This document shows, one piece after another, positions 47,611 through 51,865 of a stretch of 64,000 nucleotides of DNA. The position numbers were made by a program, and so were the translations under genes. The first letter of the stretch is position 1. Every line of letters begins with the position of its first letter. The stretch covers positions 52,496 through 116,495 of the forward strand of contig DVNB01000087.1 of the NCBI GenBank assembly GCA_018714695.1, read 5' to 3'. This stretch comes from Candidatus Ornithomonoglobus merdipullorum. Lineage in GTDB: Bacteria; Bacillota; Clostridia; UBA1381. Below the pieces are notes generated by a model. That model was given only the letters and a program-made list of their open reading frames with translations, did no database searches and had not been told where the DNA came from.

Positions 47611-47807
47611 TTTTTGAGTTAAGAATATAATATTGGATGTTTTTACGCTTGACATATTGAAGTCTTTTTTGTATAATAATATTAGGAGCATGCGGCGGAG
47701 TGTGTGCTTCGAAAGCAGATGTGTGCGAAAGGACAGAGACTCTGAGGTAAAGCGCCCCGGGCAGACGTATGCGCGGAGGTGCGGGTTCTTTTATTTGAAA
47801 GGATTTG

Positions 47808-48320
47808 ATGAGAAGCAAGATGAATCGAGAGGTAATACTGTGTCTCAGAGAGCTTTTCCGCGACTCGAGACTGAATGTAATGATGGGCTTCACGCAGCAT
47901 GGGGACACATCCTGTCTTGCGCATACGATAGCGGTCGTCTATTGTGCGCTCGCTATAGCGAGGATAATGCATCTGCGCGTGAACAAAAGAGAGCTTATAC
48001 GCGGAGGGATACTGCACGATTATTTTCTGTACGATTGGCACGACGGTGAGAAGGGGAGAAAGATCCATGGCTTCACACATCCGTCGTCGGCGCTTGCGAA
48101 TGCCGAAACGGATTTTCGTCTGAGCCGGCGCGAGCGGGATATAATAAAGAAGCACATGTTTCCTCTGACCGTAAAGCCGCCTATGTACCGCGAGGCGTGG
48201 CTTATATGCCTTGCCGATAAGATCTGCGCATGCAAAGAGGCTGTGAGAAAGGATGCTTATCCCGAAATAACGAGGATGGCAGAGCGGCAGCATCTCAGAT
48301 GCGGAGCAGCAGGCGTATAA
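47808..48320 (+). CDS. HD domain-containing protein
   Basis: HTIAVVYCALAIA...RGGILHDYFLYDWH HD motif; KADKI-like LADKICACKE. Confidence 0.85.
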   Translation: MRSKMNREVILCLRELFRDSRLNVMMGFTQHGDTSCLAHTIAVVYCALAIARIMHLRVNKRELIRGGILHDYFLYDWHDGEKGRKIHGFTHPSSALANAETDFRLSRRERDIIKKHMFPLTVKPPMYREAWLICLADKICACKEAVRKDAYPEITRMAERQHLRCGAAGV

Positions 48321-48401
48321 AGGTCTGTACGGCAGCTAGGCGGATATAAAGGCATTAACGAAAGAAGCTCTTGTATAAATAAACGGAGGACGGTGATAAC
48401 A

Positions 48402-49040
48402 ATGACGTTATCTCAATATTTCATTTGTTTTATAATATACAGCTTTTTGGGTTGGGTGTATGAATCGCTGTTTTATTCGTTCCAGTTCAAGAAGCCGGTG
48501 AATACCGGATTCCTGCACGGATGTATTTGTCCAATATACGGACTTGTGTGCGTTATGAACATAGCGTTTCTGGGCAAGGTGAAAAGCGAGGCTGCGATAT
48601 TTGTCGCAAGTATGATCACGGTATCTGTGACCGAATACGTGGTCTCATATCTGCTAGAGCACCTGTTCGGCAAACGGTGGTGGGATTACAGTGACTGGCC
48701 GCTGAATCTAAACGGCAGGATAAGTCTCATATCGTCTCTGGGATTCGGAGCGATGTCGCTGATACAGCTGAGACTGCTGCATCCGGCGATAATGAAGGTC
48801 GTATTACATATTCCTGCGGGGACCATGAAGCTTATAACCATACTTTTTATTGTGTGGGTCTTTTTCGATCTCTGCCTGACGGTGAGAGATATGGATAAGA
48901 CGGACGACCGTCTCTGGTTTATAGACGAGGAGTCGGAGACTATCAGGCAGGCGAATGAAAAGCTTGAGGAAAAGAAGAAGAGACTGTCGCTGCGTTACGG
49001 CAATGTCAAAGAGCGGATAAGGGACGCCTTCGGCAGATAA
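48402..49040 (+). CDS. CmpB-type (putative ABC transporter permease) membrane protein
   Basis: FIIYSFLGWVYESLFYSF...NTGFLHGCICPIYGLVCV...WWDYSDWPLNLNGRISLISSLGFG. Confidence 0.88.
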   Translation: MTLSQYFICFIIYSFLGWVYESLFYSFQFKKPVNTGFLHGCICPIYGLVCVMNIAFLGKVKSEAAIFVASMITVSVTEYVVSYLLEHLFGKRWWDYSDWPLNLNGRISLISSLGFGAMSLIQLRLLHPAIMKVVLHIPAGTMKLITILFIVWVFFDLCLTVRDMDKTDDRLWFIDEESETIRQANEKLEEKKKRLSLRYGNVKERIRDAFGR

Positions 49041-49143
49041 CGTGATGCACTTTCGTATCTGTCGTCATATTCAAGTTATGTACACGGCGGCGCATTGCGC
49101 CGCCTGTTGATATTAAGAGCGGTTTTACGCAGGGGGTGTATAC

Positions 49144-50421
49144 ATGGAAGAATCCAGACTCGGCTTGTGGCTTGAGAGAAATCTGCCGACCTTGCTGTTG
49201 TTTATAATACGTATAGTAGAGGTTTTTGCGGCAAGTATAGTTCCGTCGGTGCTGAGCGTTATAGTTATCTTTCTCGCGCCGAGCGAGAGGTCCTGGTCGG
49301 TGCTGAGCGTTTTTTGTTTTATAATAACAACGGCTGTAAACTGGTATTTCTGGCTTGATTTTGCTGTTGAGCGCGAGAGCGTAAAGCAGTTTTATATAAT
49401 AAACGGTATAGTTCAGGCCATATATATAGCCGCGTCTATAGTCGGATATTTCTTTCTCGGATATCTTGTATATTCAATGACATTTGCAAATCTTCGTATT
49501 TTCGAGGTGTTTGAAATGAAGACCATACATTCGGTGCTGATAACCGACGGTATATCGGTGCTGGTGATGATCGCGTGCGAGCGGTGGTCGAGGGCGCATA
49601 TAGACAAGATACGCGAGGTCCTAAAGAAAAATGGCGCCGATAAGGTCGAGATGGAGGACAAGTCGGAAAGCATCGTGCCTACAAAGCAGGATCGCGCCAT
49701 AGAGACACTTTCGGTCGAGGAGATGGCTGAGGAGATAGTCAGGGACGAGGAGGAAAGGCTTGAGGCGGCAAGGGAGGCTGCTGAGAGCGAGCCTGAGGAG
49801 CTTTGGAACGATGATATATCCAAGGGACACGGCGAGACTATAGTGCGTGTTGATTACAGCGAGGAAGGCACAGATACGGACGAGAATGATTTTGTTCCCG
49901 GCGCTGAAGTGAACGAGAATGAGGATTATGAGGCGGACTCTCTATGGAACAGCGAGATATACGAGGGAAGGACCGAGGGCGGAAAGCCTGTTACAGACTT
50001 TGAGGACGAGCTGAACGAGCTGCCGCCGGAACCGGCTGAGGATGAGCCTCTTTGGGACGAGGCGTTTTACAGGCAGAGGGGAAATGCGGAGGAGCTTGAG
50101 CGGATATACGCCGAGGAGGAGGCGACAGCGGCTCCGGAGGAGGTACCGTATGATGCCGATTCCCTTTGGAACAGCGATTTTTACCGCGGCACAGATAAAA
50201 ATGATATTCCGGAGCGAGTGCTTGATCTCAGCGACGAGCCGGAGGATATACCCGAGGACAGCTCTGAGGACGGATATGCCCCCGATGCATTGTGGGATAA
50301 TGTCGGCAGAGCGATCGGTGACGATATGCCGGAGAACGAGGAGCCGATAAACCCGAATATGGATTACGATACGGATTCTCTTTGGAGCAAGGATATGCAT
50401 ATGGGAAAAGAAAATAAATGA
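49144..50421 (+). CDS. Membrane protein with acidic tail containing six LW-motif repeats
   Basis: N-terminal ~4 TM segments then acidic low-complexity tail with repeated [ED]xLW[ND]... motifs. Confidence 0.75.
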   Translation: MEESRLGLWLERNLPTLLLFIIRIVEVFAASIVPSVLSVIVIFLAPSERSWSVLSVFCFIITTAVNWYFWLDFAVERESVKQFYIINGIVQAIYIAASIVGYFFLGYLVYSMTFANLRIFEVFEMKTIHSVLITDGISVLVMIACERWSRAHIDKIREVLKKNGADKVEMEDKSESIVPTKQDRAIETLSVEEMAEEIVRDEEERLEAAREAAESEPEELWNDDISKGHGETIVRVDYSEEGTDTDENDFVPGAEVNENEDYEADSLWNSEIYEGRTEGGKPVTDFEDELNELPPEPAEDEPLWDEAFYRQRGNAEELERIYAEEEATAAPEEVPYDADSLWNSDFYRGTDKNDIPERVLDLSDEPEDIPEDSSEDGYAPDALWDNVGRAIGDDMPENEEPINPNMDYDTDSLWSKDMHMGKENK

Positions 50422-50435
50422 ATAAATAAAGCGGG

Positions 50436-50474
50436 GACATCCGGGTGCGTTCGAGTGCGGTGTCCCCGCTTTTG
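50436..50474. terminator. Bidirectional terminator between convergent genes
   Basis: aaagcggggaca...tgtccccgctttt. Confidence 0.85.
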
Positions 50475-50485
50475 CGGGTGATCTG

Positions 50486-51865
50486 TTATTCTGTTATTGC
50501 CGAACCGATATTCGTTACGTCTCCTGCGCCCATTGTGAATACTATGTCGCCTTCGCGGGCGTCTTTTTTTATATATTCCTCTATATCGGCAAAATCGTCC
50601 ATATATCTGACGTTCAAGCCGCGTTCTGCTATGGCCTCCGCAAGTTTCTCCGCGGTAGTAACGCCGTCCGGCTTTTCCCGCGCCGCGTATATATGCGTGA
50701 TTATGAGCTCATCCGTGTCGTCGAATGCGGTTAAAAATTCATCCCACAGAGTTCTTGTACGCGAGTAAGTGTGAGGCTGGAAAATACATATGATGCGGTC
50801 GTGAGGAAACGCCTTTGCAGCCTTGAGCGTAGCCTTTATCTCTGTCGGGTGATGAGCGTAATCGTCAAGGACCACGGCGCCGTTTACGAATCCTTTTTTT
50901 TCAAAGCGGCGGTGGGTTCCTTTAAAGGTCTTAAGCCCCTTTGCCGCCTCGGGTGCAGGAACGCCAAGTATCTCGCATACCGCTATCGTTGCGAGCGCGT
51001 TTAAGATATTGTGATCTCCCGGTACGTTTAGCGATACGGAGCAGAGCTTTTTGCCGTTTTTGCACACGTCAAATGATGGATAGCCTGCATGGTATACTAT
51101 ATTTTCGGCATAATAATCGTTGGAATCGGATATGCCGTAGGTAACAATGTCAAGATCCGAGTCCTTGAGAGCAAGCCGTATGTTCTCGTCCTCGCCGTAT
51201 GCGACCACCTTGCCTATGCCGCGGGTGAGCTCGGCGAACTGACTGAAGCTGTCTCTTATCATCTCGATGCCCGTGAAGAAATCGAGGTGATCCTCCTCGA
51301 TGTTCGTGATCAGAGCGACTGTCGGGAAAAATTTCAGAAAGCTGTTGGTGTATTCGCATGCCTCGGTGACGAAGAGATCGGATCTCCCGCAGTGGATATT
51401 CCCGCCTATAAGATCGAGCTCGCCGCCTATGGAGACCGTCGGATCAACTCCCGCGCCTATCAGAGCATGCGCAAGCATGGAGGTGGTAGTAGTCTTTCCG
51501 TGAGTGCCCGCAACGCCTACGGCGTGGTGATACTCCTTCATCAGTGCGCCAAGGAACTCCGCGCGGTCTATAAGACGTATACCCCGCGCCTTTGCCTCTA
51601 TCATCTCTGGATTGTCATCCTTCACTGCGGCGGTATGTACCACAAGCTCCGCATCTCCTATGTTTTTAGCATCGTGTCCCTCGTATATCACCGCTCCCTC
51701 ATTTTCGAGGCGGTGCGTTATATCGGACTTTGCCCGGTCACTGCCGGTGACTCTGTAGCCCTTTGACAGAGCCACATGCGCCAATCCGCTCATGCTTATT
51801 CCGCCTATCCCTATAAAATGGATGCATGCGTTTTTTTTCAGATCGTTCATTTCAAATCTTTTCAT
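50486..51865 (-). CDS. murC: UDP-N-acetylmuramate-L-alanine ligase
   Basis: IHFIGIGGISMSGLAHVALSKGYRVTGSD; GVAGTHGKTTTTSMLAHAL; VLDDYAHHPTEIKATL. Confidence 0.98.
   Translation of the reverse strand: MKRFEMNDLKKNACIHFIGIGGISMSGLAHVALSKGYRVTGSDRAKSDITHRLENEGAVIYEGHDAKNIGDAELVVHTAAVKDDNPEMIEAKARGIRLIDRAEFLGALMKEYHHAVGVAGTHGKTTTTSMLAHALIGAGVDPTVSIGGELDLIGGNIHCGRSDLFVTEACEYTNSFLKFFPTVALITNIEEDHLDFFTGIEMIRDSFSQFAELTRGIGKVVAYGEDENIRLALKDSDLDIVTYGISDSNDYYAENIVYHAGYPSFDVCKNGKKLCSVSLNVPGDHNILNALATIAVCEILGVPAPEAAKGLKTFKGTHRRFEKKGFVNGAVVLDDYAHHPTEIKATLKAAKAFPHDRIICIFQPHTYSRTRTLWDEFLTAFDDTDELIITHIYAAREKPDGVTTAEKLAEAIAERGLNVRYMDDFADIEEYIKKDAREGDIVFTMGAGDVTNIGSAITE

Follow-up and report, generated by a model that had tools for sequence, protein, structure and literature searches.

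The window analysed here, a 64,000-nucleotide stretch of a Candidatus Ornithomonoglobus merdipullorum contig (DVNB01000087.1), contains a gene for a membrane protein whose acidic C-terminal tail carries a short peptide centred on Leu-Trp (LW) six times. The locus raises the question of what such a tail does, that is, whether the repeats dock another protein, bind the tail itself or the membrane, form a surface array or are only the product of drift. Conserved, ordered and multivalent arrays of short linear motifs are well described in eukaryotes. For bacteria, to our knowledge, few examples have been described, and even fewer of these involve an integral membrane protein.

The gene and its protein

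The protein consists of a four-helix membrane domain followed by a disordered acidic tail with a net charge of -63. A Shine-Dalgarno-like sequence, AGGGGG, is located at 49131-49136, and the ATG lies 7 bases downstream.

49144..50421, + strand: gene for a 425-residue membrane protein with an LW-repeat tail (open reading frame)
49144..49638, + strand: membrane domain (AlphaFold2 mean pLDDT 91.2 and pTM 0.82 for the domain alone; alignment of 19 relatives)
49714..49788, + strand: predicted acidic or amphipathic helix, residues 191-215, conserved (AlphaFold2, pLDDT about 75-79 for most residues; conserved columns)
49786..49830, + strand: LW repeat 1, degenerate, EELWNDDISKGHG (distant orthologs lack the W or have another residue there)
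49819..49902, + strand: second conserved tail element, KGHGE...DTDENDFVPG, residues 226-253 (13-ortholog alignment)
49927..49971, + strand: LW repeat 2, YEADSLWNSEIYEGR (motif HMM E 1.9e-9; in 13 of 13 aligned orthologs)
50035..50079, + strand: LW repeat 3, EDEPLWDEAFYRQR (motif alignment and motif HMM)
50149..50193, + strand: LW repeat 4, YDADSLWNSDFYRGT (motif alignment and motif HMM; in 13 of 13 aligned orthologs)
50275..50319, + strand: LW repeat 5, half motif, YAPDALWDNVGRAIG (motif HMM; in 11 of 13 aligned orthologs)
50365..50409, + strand: LW repeat 6, near the C-terminus, YDTDSLWSKDMHMGK (motif HMM; 10 of 13 orthologs at that column)

The six LW peptides quoted in the initial annotation are all found in this reading frame (49144-50421, + strand), with the Leu of LW at residues 220, 267, 303, 341, 383 and 413. 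The start assigned to the repeats, 49790, is one base off frame, so that translation directly from it runs into stops; repeat 1 lies at about 49786-49830. The motif is regular, as had been described, but its spacing is not, since the W-to-W distances are 47, 36, 38, 42 and 30 residues. All six Trp residues of the tail (225 residues) fall within [DE]xLW, while shuffled tails of the same composition average 0.11 motifs, and none of 20,000 trials exceeded 2. The acidic, disordered character attributed to the tail agrees with its net charge and with the full-length AlphaFold2 model, in which the pLDDT is mostly 80-90 in the membrane domain and mostly below 50 in the tail, except for helix 191-215.

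The LW repeats and other conserved elements of the tail

Drawn from 64 copies, the repeat has the consensus Y-[DE]-x-[DE]-S-L-W-[NDSE]-x-[DE]-[IFM]-Y-x-G-[RK]. Relative to the Leu of LW, the kept residues are Tyr at -5 and +6, Ser at -1, Asp or Glu at -2, and Gly and Arg or Lys at +8 and +9. Most copies contain W-x-x-x-[IFM]-Y or a near variant of it.

The site aligned with repeat 1 is MW, EW, TW or W-less in several orthologs, and the robust copies are repeats 2 to 6. Repeat 3 has a basic or hydrophobic segment in its place in four genus members (G001, G005, G006 and G011). Repeat 4 is directly followed by a conserved IPERVLD[LF]xDE stretch, and repeat 5 is missing the IYxGR half of the motif. 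In three further orthologs, a C-terminal LW is present at the end of the protein, shorter than repeat 6 or aligned outside its column.

The segment at the repeat 3 site in loci L007, L008, L009 and L010 is basic and hydrophobic and about 30 residues long (for example, VRRFVRSFFIFAKYRQ). Judged by its sequence, it looks like an amphipathic membrane-binding helix within the acidic tail.

Two conserved elements other than the repeats are also present. The helix of residues 191-215 is placed between the membrane domain and the repeats. In the element of residues 226-253, G228, D244, D246 and D249 are invariant or nearly so in the 13 orthologs.

Membrane domain and topology

In the AlphaFold2 model, the long helices of the membrane domain comprise residues 5-44, 48-76, 80-104 and 127-162, and an extra, shorter helix (residues 106-123) lies between helices 3 and 4. 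Residues R23, P34-S35, N66, N87, R118, E121 and T127 are conserved in the 19 relatives. The mean number of Lys and Arg residues is 3.1 at the N-terminus, 3.5 in loop 2-3 and 4.9 at the juxtamembrane C-terminus; it is 1.1 in loop 1-2 and 2.0 in loop 3-4. Because of this distribution over the loops and termini, the positive-inside rule predicts that both ends of the protein are cytoplasmic, which would place the tail in the cytoplasm.

The initial annotation recognised no named family, and no relative emerged here from Pfam, NCBIfam, PHROGs or the PDB. Searches of the LW protein against Pfam, NCBIfam and PHROGs gave no convincing match (family cut-offs; E<=1 for PHROGs), and Foldseek gave no fold match to the membrane domain at E<=0.001 either in the PDB (best E 1.3) or among viral models. 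PF06541 is absent from the LW protein and present only in its neighbour. The Pfam matches to EIID-AGA and Cytochrom_B_N_2 are weak and not common to the members, and were rejected. Matches to melanocortin receptors in a PDB sequence search (E 0.0003) extend over two segments of an engineered fusion protein and were likewise discarded.

Conservation and ancestry of the array

The protein search covered 101 genomes, 16 of them members of the genus, which consist of many contigs and are partly incomplete. The LW gene is present in 14 of the 16 genus genomes, the two without a match being 77% and 69% complete. Beyond the genome analysed here, 13 of 15 genus members have a homolog, with 28-74% identity for the full-length ones; in G002, only a tail fragment is found, at a contig end. 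A search of named genome contigs with a four-sequence alignment returned four loci, all from uncultured Clostridia bacterium.

Repeats are present in every genus genome that has the gene, and the number of LW copies varies from 3 to 6 per protein. Orthologs that keep the membrane part but have lost the repeats, which the initial annotation had named as evidence against its reading, do not occur within the genus; all orthologs with a tail carry several copies. The copies are down to three in G012 and G013, and strong multivalency is therefore not always needed.

The motifs are conserved to about the same degree as the membrane domain and more strongly than the sequence between them. In the 13 orthologs, the commonest residue has a mean share of 58% in the motif columns, 56% in the membrane domain and 40% in the linkers. 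In the distant orthologs, conservation of the motif is similar to or higher than that of the membrane domain, while that of the linkers is down to 11-25%; in G009, for example, the values are 43% for the motif, 29% for the membrane domain and 18% for the linkers. In two ortholog pairs, the core motif sites have a dN of 0.12 and 0.17 and the linkers one of 0.33 and 0.42, a comparison that serves only as a guide because dS is high or saturated.

The copies also keep their places. For 44 of 60 copies, the closest counterpart in another species occupies the same place in the array (10.6 expected), and only 3 of 60 are matched better by another copy of the same protein. Based on these positional matches and on the conservation of motifs relative to linkers, the ordered array predates the species of the genus, and its copies are individually maintained under selection. 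Local gains are seen in L013 (G009), which has three similar adjacent copies, and in L008 (G005), which has one extra C-terminal copy.

Distribution of the motif and relatives with other tails

An HMM of the repeat (20 positions), a check proposed in the initial annotation, recovers the LW reading frame in each genus genome with the gene, with one to six matches apiece. Across the genus, 70 genomes of the family and 391 genomes of the class, a sample searched within the limited power of short motif HMMs, all other matches are weak. The six best class matches were examined as candidates for the motif in other proteins and rejected as short chance frames and unlike proteins. No match to the LW protein was found in the phage, plasmid and viral-contig sets. 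Among the genomes searched, the LW tail is seen solely in one genus.

Outside the genus, the searches found only tail-less relatives of the membrane domain, 150-200 residues long, some of them with other tails. In other genera of the family these relatives sometimes form tandem pairs, and in the class weaker relatives are scattered. These genes do not share the gene context of the LW gene and are best regarded as relatives, not orthologs.

Tandem pairs of such relatives are found in two other genomes of the family (L059:5416-6633 and L062:6769-7880). The tail of one member of the pair is His-rich or basic (HSHHHRSHHSHHGHGSHHSRHE in L059), and that of the other is acidic and contains DPF motifs (DPDDIGTAPDDPFKFDPFKDDDEEI). 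Tails seem to be interchangeable on this membrane domain. Two more distant relatives of the membrane domain (L098:865-1947, - strand, and L093:1504-2262, + strand) have in common another conserved stretch at the C-terminus, LNxxSYxFYQ...P.IK.YLKR, and the L098 relative has a long tail rich in His, Ser and Gly. A tandem pair of distant membrane-domain paralogs also occurs within the genus, on contig 2 of G005 (L096:1441-2190, + strand), where it adjoins a gene resembling pyruvate-formate-lyase-activating enzyme.

Gene neighbourhood

The genes and signals on either side of the LW gene are as follows.

47805..48320, + strand: HD-domain protein, upstream (Pfam PF01966, E 1.4e-5)
48393..49040, + strand: CmpB-like membrane protein, upstream (Pfam PF06541, E 1.8e-44)
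50428..50473, no strand: perfect 12-bp inverted repeat AAAGCGGGGACA...TGTCCCCGCTTT (read from the sequence)
50486-51865, - strand: MurC-like gene, convergent, downstream (named from its sequence)

A TtcA-like PP-loop gene is also located upstream. A close CmpB homolog is present in 8 of the 16 genus genomes, and the HD gene in 8 of 16. The HD and CmpB-like genes (47805-49040 in the window) behave as a two-gene unit: genus members have either both genes or neither. In G001, G009, G012 and G013, which are 91-99% complete, the LW gene adjoins ttcA, and HD and CmpB are absent; in G011, the LW gene is in a different context. Co-occurrence with a partner gene, another check put forward in the initial annotation, thus fails for these neighbours: because the LW gene occurs without them, HD and CmpB are rejected as obligate partners.

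The inverted repeat between the LW and MurC-like genes is likely a bidirectional terminator common to both. A GC-rich hairpin with a weak T-run, GGCGGCGCATTGCGCCGCC, is located at 49086-49104, between the CmpB-like and LW genes, and is a possible attenuator or partial terminator.

Function of the tail

The tail is probably a cytoplasmic docking strand of multivalent short linear motifs on a four-helix membrane anchor. This supports the multivalent docking peptides proposed in the initial annotation, in that the copies are ordered and conserved, the tail is predicted to be disordered and the positive-inside rule places it in the cytoplasm. Since no partner was found, docking is inferred from conservation, disorder and motif chemistry; the existence of a partner, the cytoplasmic side, folding upon binding and the multivalent mechanism have the same status. 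In the proposed mechanism, the anchor would hold a tail of roughly 260 residues as the docking strand, in which five to six W-centred peptides are set in an acidic disordered linker. Each peptide would bind weakly and all of them jointly would, probably, bind strongly to a site on a single partner in the cytoplasm, itself an oligomer or an abundant protein. Once bound, each motif may adopt a short amphipathic helix or a turn. The outcome would be a partner concentrated or tethered at the membrane, or a membrane protein gathered at its partner. Weighing against this reading are the restriction of the motif to one protein, the HD and CmpB genes that fail to follow the LW gene, and the drop to three copies in G012 and G013.

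The conserved Trp clusters could also serve self-association, with LW binding LW, the acidic linkers or helix 191-215, which would lead to clustering or auto-inhibition with no outside partner. That the motif is found in only one protein per genome, that no co-varying neighbour gene was found and that the conserved helix and the KGxGE/DxDExDFV element lie between the membrane and the repeats would all suit such an arrangement. However, a charge of -63 disfavours contacts between tails, and the AlphaFold2 monomer, which models the tail and its motifs at low confidence, offers no evidence that the motifs dock on their own protein, so that self-association appears unlikely. Contact with the membrane is a rather improbable role, in which Trp and its flanking residues would dip into the inner leaflet and phosphorylation of Tyr or Ser would release them. 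The Tyr residues kept at -5 and +6 and the Ser kept at -1, in an acidic context, are consistent with such sites, and the basic or hydrophobic stretch that replaces repeat 3 in four genus members could touch the membrane. The WxxxF/Y motifs of PEX5, which bind PEX14, in some cases also bind bilayers (PMC8086558). The dense negative charge around the LW motifs, however, opposes an anionic inner leaflet, and the conserved Gly, Arg or Lys at +8 and +9 and Asp or Glu at -2 point to recognition by a specific pocket of a protein more than to plain insertion.

An extracellular tail, with the repeats as a surface ligand or adhesin-like array, is very improbable. Gram-positive surface proteins commonly carry tandem repeats that vary in copy number, but the Lys and Arg pattern over the four helices predicts that both ends are inside, and the copies here keep position-specific identity with no homogenising. 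It is scarcely credible that the repeats are functionless drift, even though low-complexity acidic tails evolve fast, as the linkers do here, since drift is contradicted by the shuffle test, the conservation of motif relative to linker, the lower dN at core sites and the positional orthology. If the docking strand is real, the 15-residue repeat peptide would be a ready bait for a partner gathered at the membrane of this lineage. The membrane-domain family, with its LW-repeat, His-rich and DPF-acidic tails, would make up a novel group of anchors in bacteria.

Comparison with known systems

The RNase E C-terminus, the only similar bacterial tail found in the open-licence literature, is like the LW tail a membrane-tethered disordered scaffold with conserved short linear motifs and a variable number of repeats (PMC11964227). 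It differs in its motifs and in having Arg-rich, RNA-binding REER repeats, an amphipathic-helix anchor and an N-terminal enzyme. The W-acidic and Y-acidic cargo motifs of the kinesin light chain system resemble the LW repeat in that, in cargo adaptors, a Trp or Tyr is flanked by acidic residues, and they are read by a TPR domain; these motifs, however, are eukaryotic. Usually, only one or two copies of them are present.

The N-terminal WxxxF/Y motifs of PEX5 are bound by PEX14 and PEX13. They form a series of W-x-x-x-F/Y peptides (W0-W7) in a disordered chain, and a small globular domain reads them (PMC8086558). The LW repeat similarly presents W-x-x-x-[IFM]-Y in a disordered tail, but it adds a fixed Tyr at -5, D/E-S-L before the Trp and G-R after it, and PEX5 is a soluble eukaryotic receptor. 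Pfam detects no C-terminal TPR cargo-binding domain in the LW protein, whose tail ends with repeat 6. Pex14_N (PF04695) has no match in the 16 genus genomes and none in the control genomes either.

The Rubisco-binding motif of the algal pyrenoid is centred on Trp. Such motifs tie proteins to a multimeric enzyme via weak multivalent contacts (PMC10473226). One protein with the motif, RBMP1/BST4, has four predicted transmembrane segments and a disordered C-terminus with two Rubisco-binding motifs (PMC11638005). The LW protein has the same architecture, a multi-pass anchor with a long disordered tail that bears repeated motifs, and the likeness extends to architecture only. As with the algal motif, the LW motif is restricted to one lineage. 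Its sequence differs from that in EPYC1 and the RBMPs, and it is found in one protein, whereas the algal motif is common to several. The Rubisco large chain (PF00016) was found in 0 of 16 genus genomes, a search that was positive in 5 of 14 known genomes used as a control, and the LW protein has no Pfam match to bestrophin. Since no Rubisco and no TPR domain were found, the LW protein belongs to neither the RBMP1/BST4 nor the PEX5 family.

Later work on BST4 rejected a tether role for the protein, which may instead be targeted via its motifs (PMC11638005). The same architecture can therefore mean a membrane protein that is targeted to its partner, and by this analogy the LW protein may work in either direction: the anchor may recruit the partner, or the partner the anchor. 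More tentatively, and with less than even likelihood, the LW protein, as a four-helix anchor of a new family, may constitute a genus-specific tethering or condensate system in which the LW array draws an oligomeric cytoplasmic partner to the membrane through multivalent binding, a bacterial counterpart of the Rubisco-binding-motif proteins of the pyrenoid.
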